From Rhizobium brockwellii (lineage in GTDB: Bacteria; Pseudomonadota; Alphaproteobacteria; Rhizobiales; Rhizobiaceae), in assembly GCF_000769405.2 (NCBI RefSeq), contig NZ_CP053439.1, forward strand, positions 4,324,501 to 4,388,500: DNA of 64,000 nt, in the 5' to 3' direction. The first letter of the stretch is position 1, and each line of letters starts with the position of its first letter. Made by a program: the position numbers and the translations under genes. The notes beneath the pieces are model-generated. The model worked only from the letters and a program-made list of their open reading frames with translations, did no database searches and had not been told where the DNA came from. This document shows, piece by piece, positions 3,768 through 58,723 of the stretch.

Positions 3768-4958
3768 TCAGTGACCGCCTCCGGAGGTCTCATCGGCATA
3801 ATGGGCCAGGTTGGAGAGCAGCAGAACGACGATGAGCAGCACCGGCAGCGCCATGAAAACGACGGCAAAACCGATATGCTCGGCGACGAAGCCGATCAAC
3901 GATGGCGCAACCAGCATGCCGGAATAGCCCATGGTCGTGACCACCGAGATGCCGATGCCGGGCTTGAGTCCGGGAATATTGCCCGCCGCCGAGAAAGCGA
4001 TCGGCACCATGTTGGAAATGCCGATACCGCAAAACGCAAAGCCCAGGATGGCAAGCTCGGCATTGGGCGCCAGGCCGGCAAGCAGCATGCCGACAATGGC
4101 AAACAAAGTGCAGATGCGTAGCGTCTTGACGCCGCCCAGGCGGTCGCGCACCAGGTCGCCGGCAAAGCGCATGATTGCCATGGTGGCCGAAAAGGCTGCG
4201 AAACCAAGGCCGGAAAGCGCCACGGATGCACCCATTTCCTGCCGGAGATAGAGCGCGCCCCAGTCGAGAACAGCGCCTTCAGGCACCATGCTGAACAGCG
4301 CCATCAATCCGAGCAGCCACGGCAGCGGCACCATCGGCAGCTTCGTCTTTTCCTTCTTGGCGTCGGGATGCGGCGGATCCGCAAGGATCATCGGCCAGGC
4401 GACGGCAAGGAAGATCGCCGCCAGCACCGTCGCCAGTTGCGCATGGCCGAGAATACCGAGCTTGGAGATCACGATGCCGCCGAGACCTGAGCCGATCAGT
4501 CCGCCAAGGCTCCAGAAAGCGTGGCAGGACGACATGATGGCGCGGCGCATGGATTTCTCGACCGAGACCGCATTGGCATTCATCGCCACATCCATTGCAC
4601 CGATGAAGCCGCCGAACAGGAAGAGCGTGATCGCTCCAGTCAGCACATTTGGCGCCAGCGTCAATGCCAACAGCAACGGTAGCACGCAGACGGCCAGTAT
4701 CTGAACGACGATACGCGAACCGTGTTTGGCGATCTGTGCACCGGCGATCGGCATCATGACCAGCGAGCCGACGCCGAAAACCAGGATCATCAGCCCAAGC
4801 TCGAACTTGGTCAGCGCCAGACGCTCGGCAAAATCAGGGATCTTCGGCGCCCAGCAGCCGACGACAAAACCGTTCATGAGAAAGAGCAGGGAAACCGCCG
4901 CTCTGCTTCTGGTAATGAAGCCGCTCCGGGCTCCCGGCGTACTCACATGACTATCCAT
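3768..4958 (-). CDS. Major facilitator superfamily transporter
   Basis: A 396-residue inner-membrane protein with about twelve hydrophobic segments. It shows the MFS-type start RAAVSLLFLMNGFVVGCWAPKIPDFAERL and a loop after helix two like the family A-motif region. It resembles the sugar-efflux/fucose-permease-like branch of MFS, but the substrate cannot be read from sequence. A GAGGAAAG ribosome site precedes the ATG at 4958. It lies about 60 bases downstream of a DeoR-family gene on the same strand, so the regulator may control it and the two may share a transcript. Confidence 0.85.
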   Translation of the reverse strand: MDSHVSTPGARSGFITRSRAAVSLLFLMNGFVVGCWAPKIPDFAERLALTKFELGLMILVFGVGSLVMMPIAGAQIAKHGSRIVVQILAVCVLPLLLALTLAPNVLTGAITLFLFGGFIGAMDVAMNANAVSVEKSMRRAIMSSCHAFWSLGGLIGSGLGGIVISKLGILGHAQLATVLAAIFLAVAWPMILADPPHPDAKKEKTKLPMVPLPWLLGLMALFSMVPEGAVLDWGALYLRQEMGASVALSGLGFAAFSATMAIMRFAGDLVRDRLGGVKTLRICTLFAIVGMLLAGLAPNAELAILGFAFCGIGISNMVPIAFSAAGNIPGLKPGIGISVVTTMGYSGMLVAPSLIGFVAEHIGFAVVFMALPVLLIVVLLLSNLAHYADETSGGGH

Positions 4959-5021
4959 TTCCGGTCTTTCCTCATTGCCGGGCTTGCTTGGCCCGGTTTC
5001 CCTAAACTCTATGACGTCGCC

Positions 5022-5798
5022 TCAGTTCGTTTTCTCGGCGAGAACAGTCCTGCATCCGCGCTCGCGGTAACGGGCGAGAATGGCCGGATCGGCATCGTGC
5101 TCGACGACCAGGCATTCGCAATGCGCAACCGGCAGGATGCTATGGGGGGCAGCGGTGCCGAATTTCTCCGAGGTTGCAGCCACCAACACCCTTTTGCTCC
5201 TGGATGTCGCAAACCGCTTGAACTCCGCATCCTCGAAGCCGAACACCGTGATGCCGGCCTCGAGATCGACGCCGCAGGCGCCGAGAATGCAGAGATCGGG
5301 CGAAATCTGCTCCATATCCCGCAAGGCCTTGGCGCCGAGCGAGCCGCCCGTCTGCCGATCCACCATCCCGCCGATCAGAATGACGTTGACGGCAGGCTTG
5401 TCGATCAGAGCTGCGGCAATCGCCGGCGCATTGGTCGCAGCCGTCAGTGCAAGTTCGACCGGTAATGCGTGGGCAATCGCCAGATTGGTGCTGCCGGCAT
5501 CGAAGAACACAGTCGAACCGCCGGCAATCTGCTTTGTCGCAGCGCGCGCCAGCGCCTGTTTTCGGTCAGCGGCAAAGCCGATGCGCTGCGTCAGGCTTCC
5601 GTGCGCCGGCGAGACCGGCAATGCGCCGCCGTAGACCCGCTCACAGAGCCCTGCCGCCGCCATCTCCCGCAGATCCCGCCGCACCGTATCCTCGGAGACG
5701 CCGAATTCGAGCGCAAGCTCCGTCGCCAGCACGCGGCCATTCAGCCGCAGCCTCTCGGAAATCACGCCTTGGCGCTCTCGCAACAGAAAATCCTGCAT
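5022..5798 (-). CDS. DeoR/GlpR-family transcriptional regulator
   Basis: 258 residues. The N-terminal winged helix-turn-helix (about residues 5-58) has the DeoR signature: RQGVISERLRLNGRV, then ELALEFGVSEDTVRRDL. The C-terminal DeoRC sugar-phosphate sensor domain contains FFDAGSTN and LIGG. These regulators usually repress sugar or polyol metabolism genes and are released by a phosphorylated intermediate. The ATG at 5798 follows GGTAGGAAC and places the helix-turn-helix at the usual distance from the N-terminus; a longer reading frame upstream is not convincing. It is divergent from the EamA transporter and upstream of the MFS gene, the two obvious candidate targets. Confidence 0.92.
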   Translation of the reverse strand: MQDFLLRERQGVISERLRLNGRVLATELALEFGVSEDTVRRDLREMAAAGLCERVYGGALPVSPAHGSLTQRIGFAADRKQALARAATKQIAGGSTVFFDAGSTNLAIAHALPVELALTAATNAPAIAAALIDKPAVNVILIGGMVDRQTGGSLGAKALRDMEQISPDLCILGACGVDLEAGITVFGFEDAEFKRFATSRSKRVLVAATSEKFGTAAPHSILPVAHCECLVVEHDADPAILARYRERGCRTVLAEKTN

Positions 5799-6010
5799 GT
5801 TCCTACCGGATCGAGACCTCACAAACCGAAAACGTGCATAAACGCTTACGATCATGCAGGCAATATGCACGGTCACACGTTTTCTGACGTTCGGAAATAA
5901 AGCTCCACCACCAGAGCGAATATGCCCTATTGACCGGCCCGGGAGGCGGGAATATCGATTGGTCATTCCCGATTCCCGCCGGCATATCCGCCACCTGGTC
6001 CGTTCTCCCC

Positions 6011-54326: not shown

Positions 54327-54980
54327 GTGACGACCGAGCCTGACGTGGCGATCGAGAAACTGGACCGGCACTATCTCCGCATGCCGCACAGCGAGCGCGG
54401 CATGGTCGTCGGTCTGTTCGGCGGCTCGTTCAATCCGCCGCATCAGGGCCACGCGCTCGTCGCTGAAATCGCCATCAAGCGGCTCGGCCTAGACCAGCTC
54501 TGGTGGATGGTCACCCCGGGCAATCCGCTGAAGAGCCGCAACCAGCTCGCCCCGCTTGCCGAGCGCATTGCCGAAAGCGAGCGTGTTGCCGCCAATCCGC
54601 GCGTCAAGGTCACCGCCTTCGAACAGACGCTCGGCACCAGCTACACCGCCAACACCCTTGCCCGCGTCAAGGCCCGCAATCCGCATGTGCATTTCATCTG
54701 GATTATGGGCGCAGACAGCCTGCAGACCTTTCACAAATGGCAGAAATGGCAGGAAATTGCCCGCACCTTCCCGATCGCGGTGATCGATCGGCCGGGCGCG
54801 ACGCTGTCCTTCCTGTCATCGAAAATGGCCAGGACCTTCGATTTCGCCCGTGTCGACGAGGATGATGCGCGTGTTCTCTGGAAGAAACGTGCGCCGGCCT
54901 GGACCTTCATCCACGGACCACGCTCCGGCCTGAGCTCGACGGCAATCCGCAACGGCTCGTCGCACGGCGACGCCGAATAG
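54327..54980 (+). CDS. nadD: Nicotinate-nucleotide adenylyltransferase
   Basis: About 217 residues. GLFGGSFNPPHQGHALVAEI is the nucleotidyl-transferase (T/H)xGH motif region, and SGLSSTAIRNG is the ISSTxIR motif. It makes deamido-NAD from nicotinate mononucleotide and ATP. The start is uncertain: GTG 54327 directly after the proA stop, ATG 54300 (overlapping proA) and ATG 54381 are all in frame, none with a good ribosome site. It is the last gene of obgE-proB-proA-nadD; a hairpin terminator follows. Confidence 0.93.
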   Translation: MTTEPDVAIEKLDRHYLRMPHSERGMVVGLFGGSFNPPHQGHALVAEIAIKRLGLDQLWWMVTPGNPLKSRNQLAPLAERIAESERVAANPRVKVTAFEQTLGTSYTANTLARVKARNPHVHFIWIMGADSLQTFHKWQKWQEIARTFPIAVIDRPGATLSFLSSKMARTFDFARVDEDDARVLWKKRAPAWTFIHGPRSGLSSTAIRNGSSHGDAE

Positions 54981-55029
54981 AGCGCCGCGCGCCCAGCAAG
55001 ACGCATGCGCCGGCCTGATTTCAGAAGAT

Positions 55030-55158
55030 CCCGAAAACGAGAAAGCCCGACGGGGGAGGATCCGTCGGGCTTATAAACTCGATCGACAACTGGGAGGAGG
55101 AGTGTTGTCGACCCTATCGAACGGCTATGGGAGGAGGAGAAGCCGTTTCGATGAGTAT
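55030..55158 (-). ncRNA. Trans-acting sRNA candidate with two anti-Shine-Dalgarno loops (alpha-r14/NfeR1, 'cuckoo' type)
   Basis: Read on the minus strand, hairpin 1 (55152 to 55116) pairs ATCGAAACGGCT with AGCCGTTCGAT and shows the loop TCTCCTCCTCCCAT. Hairpin 2 (55111 to 55083) pairs TCGACAAC with GTTGTCGA around ACTCCTCCTCCCA. Hairpin 3 (55072 to 55042) is an 11-bp GC-rich stem (AAGCCCGACGG/CCGTCGGGCTT) followed by a T-rich tail (TTTCTCGTTTTC). Two repeated CUCCUCCUCCC loops, able to pair with ribosome sites, plus a Rho-independent terminator are the known plan of alpha-r14 (NfeR1) and cuckoo sRNAs of alpha-proteobacteria. The size is about 125 bases. The exact 5' end and promoter are not clear to me. 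Confidence 0.8.
55042..55072. terminator. Terminator hairpin shared by the sRNA (minus) and possibly nadD (plus)
   Basis: AAGCCCGACGG and CCGTCGGGCTT form an 11-bp stem with an eight-base loop. The minus-strand side is followed by the better T-rich tail. It lies 62 bases after the nadD stop, so it may also end the obgE-nadD transcript. Confidence 0.75.
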
Positions 55159-55418
55159 GTTCTACCATATTCGACAAAAAGGAGAATATCGATTGGTGCA
55201 TTGCAGCAATGCATCAGATGCAAATCTCGAGGTGAATTTGGCTTTCCCATTGCCGTTTTTATTAGCAAAAATTAAAGAACCAGTCCCGGTCGCCGGGAGT
55301 CCTTGCCGTTTGCAAACTGACTCCCAGGTATTTTCGAACTGCTGATCTCACTTTCGGCGGAAGCCATGCACCTCACGAATGCGTGAACATTGCCCGCTGC
55401 GAACGCGAGCGCCCGATA

Positions 55419-55486
55419 GGGTTATATTTTCCTGGATATATCCCTAGCCAAGGCGAGCGGCTCGTTATATTCGTCGCAATATTTCG
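55419..55486 (+). promoter_or_regulatory. Candidate molybdate-regulator (ModE) boxes upstream of modA
   Basis: CGTTATAT (55463-55470) and ATATTTCG (55479-55486) are separated by eight bases, similar to the CGTTATAT-spacer-ATATAACG style of ModE sites. A second AT-rich palindrome, GGATATATCC, is at 55434-55443 next to GGTTATAT. Both lie just before modA. The matches are imperfect. Confidence 0.35.
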
Positions 55487-55504
55487 AACCCTGGGGAATA
55501 AGTC

Positions 55505-56296
55505 ATGCAAAACCGCCGCCAATGGATGAAACTGGCAACCGCCGCGATCGCGGCCCTCTGGCTTGGCGCGACAGTGCTTTCGACGCCTGCCGCCGCCGCC
55601 GAAAAGCTCACCGTCTTTGCCGCGGCGAGCCTTAAGGATGCGCTCGACGCTGCCAATGCCGCGTGGGCAAAGGAAAGCGGCAAGGAAGCCGTCGCCTCCT
55701 ATGCGGCGAGCGGGGCGCTGGCCAAGCAGATCGAAAACGCGGCACCCGCCGATATCTTCATCTCGGCCGACCTCGACTGGATGGACTATGTCGCCAAGAA
55801 GAACCTGATCAAGGCCGATACCCGCTCCAACCTGCTCGGCAACAAGATTGTGCTCGTTGCCGAAAAGGCCAAGGCAAAACCAGTCGAGATCAAGCAAGGC
55901 TTCGATCTCGCCGGGCTTTTGGGTGACGGCAAGCTTGCCATGGGTGAACCGAAATCCGTTCCGGCCGGCAAATACGGCATGGCGGCGCTCGAAAAGCTCG
56001 GCGTCTGGAAATCGGTCGAAACCAAGGTCGCCGGCGCCGAAAGCGTCCGCGCCGCCCTTGCCCTCGTCTCGCGCGGCGAAGCGCCCTTTGGCATCGTCTA
56101 TCAGACGGATGCCGCAGCCGATAAGGGTGTCGCCATCGTCGGCACTTTCCCCGCCGATTCCCACCCGCCGATCGTCTATCCGGTCGCAATCCTTGCCGAG
56201 AGCAAGAACCCGGATGCGTCAGCCTATCTCGATTTCCTGAAATCCGACGAGGCCGCCGCTTTCTTCACGGCGCAGGGTTTCACCATCCTGAAATAG
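55505..56296 (+). CDS. modA: Molybdate ABC transporter, periplasmic binding protein
   Basis: 263 residues. The signal peptide ends ALWLGATVLSTPAAAA. Then come LTVFAAASLKDALDAANAAW (oxyanion-binding serine/alanine loop), ADIFISADLDWMDYV, and FGIVYQTDAAADKGV, as in the ModA family. It binds molybdate or tungstate in the periplasm. First gene of modABC; candidate ModE boxes lie within 90 bases upstream. Confidence 0.95.
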   Translation: MQNRRQWMKLATAAIAALWLGATVLSTPAAAAEKLTVFAAASLKDALDAANAAWAKESGKEAVASYAASGALAKQIENAAPADIFISADLDWMDYVAKKNLIKADTRSNLLGNKIVLVAEKAKAKPVEIKQGFDLAGLLGDGKLAMGEPKSVPAGKYGMAALEKLGVWKSVETKVAGAESVRAALALVSRGEAPFGIVYQTDAAADKGVAIVGTFPADSHPPIVYPVAILAESKNPDASAYLDFLKSDEAAAFFTAQGFTILK

Positions 56297-58156: not shown

Positions 58157-58534
58157 TCAGCCGCGCTCGCCCTGCTGCAGGTTGCGCTTGCCCTCGAGCC
58201 AGGCGAGATCGTCGGCAAGGCTCATGCGCATCGTCCTTTCCATCCGGCGGAAACGCCCGAGCAATTCCTCGCCGAACGGCGTCAGCGCCGCGCCGCCGCC
58301 CTTCTGCCCGCCGCGCTGCGATTCCACCACCTGTTCGTTAAACATCCGGTTCATCTCGCTGACCAGCAGCCACGCCCGCCGATAGGACATGTCCATCGCC
58401 CGCCCCGCCGCCGAGATCGATCCGGTCTGGCGGATATGCTCCAGCAGTTCCATCTTGCCGTGGCCAAGACGATCCTCGTCCGGGAAGCTGATTCGCAGGA
58501 CAGGCACGAGTGTTTTTGCGGCTGAGTCGGTCAT
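58157..58534 (-). CDS. modE: ModE-like regulator, DNA-binding domain only
   Basis: 125 residues. The winged helix-turn-helix of the ModE/LysR type is present: LGHGKMELLEHIRQTGSISA, RAMDMSYRRAWLLVSEMNRM, and QRGGQKGGGAALTPFGEELL. The C-terminal di-MOP molybdate-binding domain of E. coli ModE is missing, so this short form either senses molybdate differently or acts with ModC's MOP domain. Start ATG 58534 gives the compact form; an ATG at 58579 would add 15 residues. It is convergent with modC. Confidence 0.88.
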   Translation of the reverse strand: MTDSAAKTLVPVLRISFPDEDRLGHGKMELLEHIRQTGSISAAGRAMDMSYRRAWLLVSEMNRMFNEQVVESQRGGQKGGGAALTPFGEELLGRFRRMERTMRMSLADDLAWLEGKRNLQQGERG

Positions 58535-58723
58535 TGAATCTGGAGATCGTGGAATTTCCCGCACTTTACGCTGCGGCATGGAAACTGTACACCGCCCGCA
58601 CGAGGCCGCCCCGAGCAGCCAAATACTTCAATTCGAACGGCAGATCGGATTTTCGGCCGTTCCGTACCTTAGCATGTCTTGAAACATTAATGGTTTGATG
58701 CCTATCTTAACCATGATCCGGTC

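Follow-up and report, generated by a model that had tools for sequence, protein, structure and literature searches.

An ar14 small RNA between nadD and modA of Rhizobium brockwellii with a start region that looks wired into nitrogen control

Analysis of 64,000 nucleotides of the Rhizobium brockwellii genome (contig NZ_CP053439.1, hereafter the window) showed that the minus-strand RNA lying between nadD and modA is a true member of the ar14 family with NfeR1-like wiring, and that it is not NfeR1 by position or by core promoter. The RNA probably blocks the translation of many mRNAs by masking the sites at which ribosomes bind, while the region around its start looks connected to the nitrogen-control system.

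Identity and structure of the RNA

The segment at 55156-55038 (minus strand) matched Rfam family RF02344 (ar14) with 107.8 bits against a gathering score of 58.8, and the covariance match was full length (model positions 1-123 of 123, E 5.9e-19). The original prediction had placed a minus-strand RNA at 55030-55158, within 8 nt of the Rfam span, and had proposed a search against the ar14 model, which was clearly positive. The predicted fold had an energy of -50.4 kcal/mol (z -7.58), and none of 200 shuffles was equally stable.

Three hairpins were identified on the minus strand. By Rfam match, motif scan and fold, hairpin 1 (55116-55152) and hairpin 2 (55081-55113) carried the exact anti-Shine-Dalgarno (anti-SD) sequence CCUCCUCCC in their loops, at 55137-55129 and 55100-55092, respectively. 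Hairpin 3 (55043-55072) was a Rho-independent terminator, as in ar14 members; it corresponded to a site of 11 pairs at 55072-55043, one of 2 terminator-like sites within 54950-55520 against 0.9 expected. The family is recognised by CCUCCUCCC unpaired in all three loops, and loop 3 of the window copy retained CCUCC alone, from 55059; most relatives, by eye, had a longer CUCCUCCC or CCUCCUCCC in the terminator loop, unlike the window copy. As first described, the sequence contained two stems with CUCCUCCUCCC in their loops ahead of a terminator; the two anti-SD loops stood, while the third, shortened anti-SD segment in the terminator loop had been missed. Elsewhere in the window, a tRNA gene was located at 47371-47285 (minus strand).

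The exact 9-mer GGGAGGAGG occurred 2 times in the window against 0.63 expected, and its count alone was rejected as proof of a small RNA, since at least 2 occurrences were reached in 11 of 100 shuffles. The strength of the feature lies in the arrangement scored by Rfam and in its conservation.

Conservation of the RNA

An alignment of 41 nadD-linked copies (the window copy and 40 of 80 named loci) showed CCTCCTCCC invariant in loops 1 and 2. The invariance of CCUCCUCCC in both loops of all 41 copies is the loop conservation in relatives that the original prediction had called for. The three-helix structure was paired in 97.6% of cells, and two-sided changes were found at 13 of 31 pairs, a number reached by none of 500 shuffles, while slid structures gave 1-4. 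Helix 1 was the weakest (92.7% paired). For the structure as a whole, the number of further pair types stood out less, being reached by 5 of 500 shuffles. The variable stems stayed paired and the loops were conserved, as is characteristic of ar14. If the feature were simply a terminator separating convergent nadD from the mod genes, with no regulatory RNA, the terminator-like hairpin 3 on the minus strand would be accounted for; the full-length Rfam match, the covariation in helices 1 and 2 and the invariant loops make this explanation extremely improbable.

Copies and genomic position

The RNA is flanked by nadD (54378-54980, plus strand, convergent; PF01467, start codon approximate) and modA (55505-56296, plus strand, divergent; PF13531). 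The position between nadD and modA was as predicted, and the Pfam domains of the neighbours fit the names nadD, modA and modB. The same genome (7.12 Mb, 7 contigs) contained nine ar14 matches, eight of them over the cut-off, on six of the seven contigs. Among the matches listed, all 60 genomes of the Rhizobium genus sample had one over the cut-off, and across the Rhizobiaceae family 97 of 101 genomes gave a match with an E value no higher than 0.001, the cut-off being exceeded in 91 of the 101. The surroundings of one plasmid copy, L004, matched a plasmid record of Rhizobium leguminosarum at 99.9% along their whole length.

The nadD-linked RNA was found by pattern just after nadD, on the opposite strand, in 80/80 named Rhizobium loci, these being the best 80 of 549 confirmed relatives, in which near relatives are favoured; all 20 loci given to Rfam were over the ar14 cut-off. 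In other Rhizobiaceae genera the pattern was found at nadD in 0/28 loci, and Rfam detected ar14 in none of the 18 of them that it was given; loci L139-L148 were covered by the pattern scan. The fetched flank contained modA in 78/80 Rhizobium nadD loci (exceptions L074 and L076), while in other genera the flank (within about 1.5 kb of nadD) contained rsfS in 20/28 loci and neither rsfS nor modA in 8/28. The stretch between nadD and rsfS, often short in the other genera, is thus the place where Rhizobium has the RNA and, in most cases, the mod genes. In L074 (Rhizobium mongolense) a large adenylate cyclase-like open reading frame (ORF), judged by eye, replaced modA after the small RNA (4176-5963).

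A pattern scan anchored on modA in 30 loci found ar14-like clusters in 2 Rhizobium loci and in L260, L266 and L286; the cluster of L260 was clear and in a different orientation, and those of L266 and L286 were weak. General travelling of the RNA with modA was unsupported, with clusters in 5 of the 30 loci, 2 of them Rhizobium. The ar14-like copy of L260 (genome G133, another genus) had four motifs and preceded modA, with both on one strand.

Promoter and upstream elements

An extended -10 element, TGGTAGAAC, was located at 55159-55167 (minus strand). It was conserved as TGnTAnAAC in 74/81 nadD-linked copies, which places the putative transcript start near 55152. The scan of the upstream region revealed no consensus sigma-70 pair, and the NfeR1 core CTTAGAC-N17-CTATAT was absent, with the extended -10 standing in its place.

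Two upstream motifs on the same strand agreed in position with those of NfeR1. An LsrB-type box, TGCATCTGATGCAT (TGCA-N6-GCAT), was found by motif scan at 55209-55222, at about -70 to -57 from the putative start, and an NtrC-type dyad, TGCTAATAAAAACGGCA (TGC-N11-GCA), at 55251-55267, at about -115 to -99. A second dyad, TGCATTGCTGCAATGCA, at 55197-55213 (minus strand), overlaps the LsrB-type box and also fits TGC-N11-GCA. The available part of PMC10746234 gives -72 to -60 for LsrB and -116 to -101 for NtrC in NfeR1; counted from the putative start, both motifs of the window copy lie within about 3 nt of this published Sinorhizobium placement.

The strict LsrB box was present in 41/81 nadD-linked copies and its core GCAT[TG][GA]CTGC in 77/81. 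The NtrC-type dyad was present in 48/81 copies, 53-55 nt from the GCAT core and with diverging flanks, where chance would give about 0.1% per sequence; by itself TGC-N11-GCA is frequent, with 39 occurrences in the window. A dyad at the same place was found in none of the other ar14 matches of the genome, L005 having TGC-N11-GCA elsewhere, at -71. Among 36 pattern-found copies in L001-L038 the dyad was present in 3, all within the 6 with a nadD-type first stem. Another element, GCGTTTTTTGGGC, was found near the dyad place in 17/81 nadD-linked copies and never together with the dyad; it was conserved about 122 nt before the first anti-SD motif (L078, L081, L082, L084, L088, L104 and others). The remaining 16/81 copies had neither; of three examined, two kept five of the six dyad bases with unchanged spacing and the third kept four. 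At that offset L051, L056 and the locus of genome G023 retained 5/6, and L076 had 4/6 at best.

NtrC was over its cut-off in the same genome, which also has a LysR-type gene next to two suhB/AbcR-type RNAs in tandem, an arrangement described for lsrB in Sinorhizobium meliloti. According to PMC10746234, NfeR1 homologues of Sinorhizobium and Rhizobium show the NtrC signature, which is not evident once Agrobacterium or Brucella sequences are added; the nadD-modA locus may be among the Rhizobium copies in the supplementary alignment of that paper.

The nadD copy might be a silent or near-silent duplicate among eight to nine ar14 copies, with another copy doing the work. The nine matches in the genome are compatible with this, and an ar14 copy can be near-silent, given that northern analysis detected only one of six S. 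meliloti copies (PMC7143759). We regard it as unlikely, since across 41 copies the stems covary and the loops are fixed, and the promoter elements are retained (-10 in 74/81, GCAT core in 77/81).

Candidate targets

The ntrB gene of the same genome begins CCGGGAGGCGGCATG, with a GGGAGG start. The predicted pairing of the loop with ntrB was -15.6 kcal/mol. For 41 ORFs of the window, which were picked by a simple composition rule and have uncertain starts, the median was -8.3 and the strongest value -12.8 kcal/mol. Located elsewhere in the genome, ntrB is the best candidate target found, a better one by complementarity than the ABC operons of the window. A GGGAGG start would serve any ribosome too, which counts against an ntrB-specific reading.

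The original prediction had named the ABC operons of the window as possible targets, and this part was not borne out: modA gave -9.0 and modB -10.5 kcal/mol, 16th and 9th of the 41 ORFs. With loop pairing this weak, targeting of the mod ABC operon looks weak and the operon was rejected as the main target. A local role, in which the RNA would regulate nadD or the adjacent mod operon, was judged very unlikely for the same reason, even with modA adjoining the RNA in 78/80 named loci; L074 and L076 retain the RNA without a nearby modA, and the modA-anchored scan returned few clusters. Before modA, at 55465-55488, the window contains a dyad-like CGTTATATTCGTCGCAATATTTCG (by eye), which could be a ModE site. 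A small protein with a LysR-type helix-turn-helix (PF00126) is encoded after the mod genes at 58157-58579 (minus strand); it is probably ModE.

Association of the dyad with the ntrB start

Among 30 Rhizobium ntrB starts, 19 had GGGAGG and 11 a CAGGAGG form, which paired at -9.7 to -11.8 kcal/mol. In 29 genomes (the rows of G003 and G029 filled by eye), the dyad and GGGAGG occurred together in 17, neither in 11, GGGAGG alone in 1 (G023) and the dyad alone in 0. On a tree of the 17 genomes from which both genes were extracted (12 of the 29 were dropped), the ntrB trait showed a single change and the dyad two; with so few genomes, comparison by independent pairs cannot reach significance. The link may be one historical split, as the tree fits one split plus one loss, and the association is suggestive only.

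Alternatively, the RNA could be a general repressor of the ar14 kind, acting on transport and metabolic mRNAs with no special tie to nitrogen control; the dyad would then be something other than an NtrC site, or ntrB just one of many targets. The anti-SD loops fit many Shine-Dalgarno sites, the predicted NfeR1 targets are mostly ABC transporters in the part of PMC10746234 available, and the dyad-ntrB link is compatible with the single split. Against this stand the dyad at a fixed place in 48/81 copies despite diverging flanks and an ntrB start that outpairs all 41 window ORFs, and we hold the general repressor to be possible but the less probable account.

The likely NfeR1 locus

Genome G129 resembles Sinorhizobium: part of its second contig matched a Sinorhizobium chiapasense plasmid at 96.2%. 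It contained two tandem ar14 copies, the second of which carried both motifs, 44 nt apart. The flanking ORFs on both sides matched those around L002, a copy of the R. brockwellii genome that adjoins trmFO/gidA-like and DUF2157 genes, and the two-motif copy sits in a locus matching L200 (trmFO/gidA-like, DUF2157 genes). We infer that the trmFO-DUF2157 locus is the NfeR1 locus of S. meliloti.

At DUF2157-anchored loci, counted by pattern, 30 Rhizobium loci had one copy in 25, none in 5 and two in 0, while 19 loci of other genera had two or more copies in 10, one in 8 and none in 1. The count leaves out L251-L256, which are poor DUF2157 matches, and the 20 of the 49 loci rechecked with Rfam agreed. 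The arrangement of G129 is not general, as a strict paired-motif test was passed by 0/49 of these loci. In G112, G115, G070, G131 and other genera, two to four ar14 copies stood in tandem, either at the trmFO-DUF2157 locus or at other sites.

Taken together, these observations allow a tentative reading, which we rate as possible rather than probable. The NfeR1 role would have moved in Rhizobium to the NtrC/LsrB-wired copy between nadD and the mod genes, with the likely NfeR1 locus shrunk to one copy or none. The mutual NtrC-small RNA loop would be kept or lost as a unit, present in dyad genomes with GGGAGG at ntrB and lacking in tropici-type genomes without both, which often have GCGTTTTTTGGGC.

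Discussion

The sequence data favour, as the likely account of this locus, a trans-acting ar14 small RNA activated by LsrB, repressed by NtrC and silencing ntrB and other mRNAs. The promoter with the extended -10 would drive a three-hairpin transcript of some 115 nt. Activation would come from a LysR regulator of the LsrB type at about -70 to -57, and repression from NtrC at about -115 to -99. The exposed anti-SD loops would pair with GGGAGG-type ribosome-binding sites and block translation. Silencing of ntrB, the sensor kinase gene of NtrBC, would leave NtrC and the RNA repressing each other, as published for NfeR1, which acts in a double-negative loop with NtrBC (PMC10746234, available part).

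This account draws on the Rfam match, the stable fold, the presence in 80/80 loci, the covarying stems and the invariant loops, and further on the NfeR1-like motif positions, the dyad at a fixed offset in 48/81 copies and the pairing with ntrB, with NtrC encoded in the genome and a LysR-type gene in an lsrB-like setting. Counting against it are the non-NfeR1 core promoter, the limited share of copies with the strict LsrB box (41/81) or the dyad, the commonness of TGC-N11-GCA and the shortened third anti-SD segment; other ar14 copies could also do the same job.

NfeR1 (Smr14C2/SmelC397) is described in the available part of PMC10746234 as the founding ar14 member, Hfq-independent, 123 nt long and with three redundant anti-SD motifs. 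The window copy, known here from sequence, shares with it the family, nearly the same distances of the LsrB- and NtrC-type motifs and ntrB as a candidate target; it differs in lying between nadD and modA, in its -10/-35 and in a shorter third anti-SD segment. With the ar14 family at large it shares the full-length covariance match, three hairpins, anti-SD loops and terminator, and it departs from the family in the shortened third loop.

The kinship to NfeR1 and the cuckoo RNAs, which the original prediction had proposed, agrees with the published accounts as far as these were available, and its interpretation is supported except for the loop count and the local ABC target. Cuckoo RNAs such as SmelA075 and SmelA099 (three and four anti-SD hairpins, in the accessible accounts) have the same loop motif and several copies per genome; a 2011 paper (PMC3927594) had already described multiple copies per genome, and forms with three as well as four hairpins. 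The window copy has three hairpins, whereas the plasmid copies L004-L006 and partly L007 of the same genome have four by eye, owing to a further CCTCCTCCC hairpin before the Rfam span. CcsR1-4 of Rhodobacter sphaeroides are likewise cuckoo-type stress RNAs, but are reported, in the sources as available, to be co-transcribed with and processed from the mRNA of CcaF1 (DUF1127). No such gene was seen beside the window copy: by eye, none of the ORFs of at least 30 aa overlapping 55140-55520 resembled a DUF1127 gene. In other genera, ar14 copies following a DUF1127-like frame (by eye), the CcaF1-CcsR arrangement, were observed in L182, L183, L184, L193, L194, L195 and L197, and plasmid records matching L004 were annotated with DUF1127 genes. 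AbcR1/AbcR2 (ar15) are also trans-acting RNAs with anti-SD motifs, LsrB-linked in S. meliloti in the part of the literature available; they form a separate family, with 5 suhB-family matches elsewhere in the R. brockwellii genome.

Most of this is known biology, and the relocation and clade-linked wiring may be new; the available main text of PMC10746234 mentions neither nadD, nor tropici, nor copies. Of the nine matches, the window copy is the likeliest to be tied into nitrogen control in Rhizobium of the leguminosarum and etli types, which makes the nadD copy the first choice for knock-outs, ahead of the copy that corresponds to NfeR1 by position. Should the linkage of the dyad with the ntrB site hold, it would offer a natural comparison between species with and without the double-negative loop in symbiotic nitrogen regulation.
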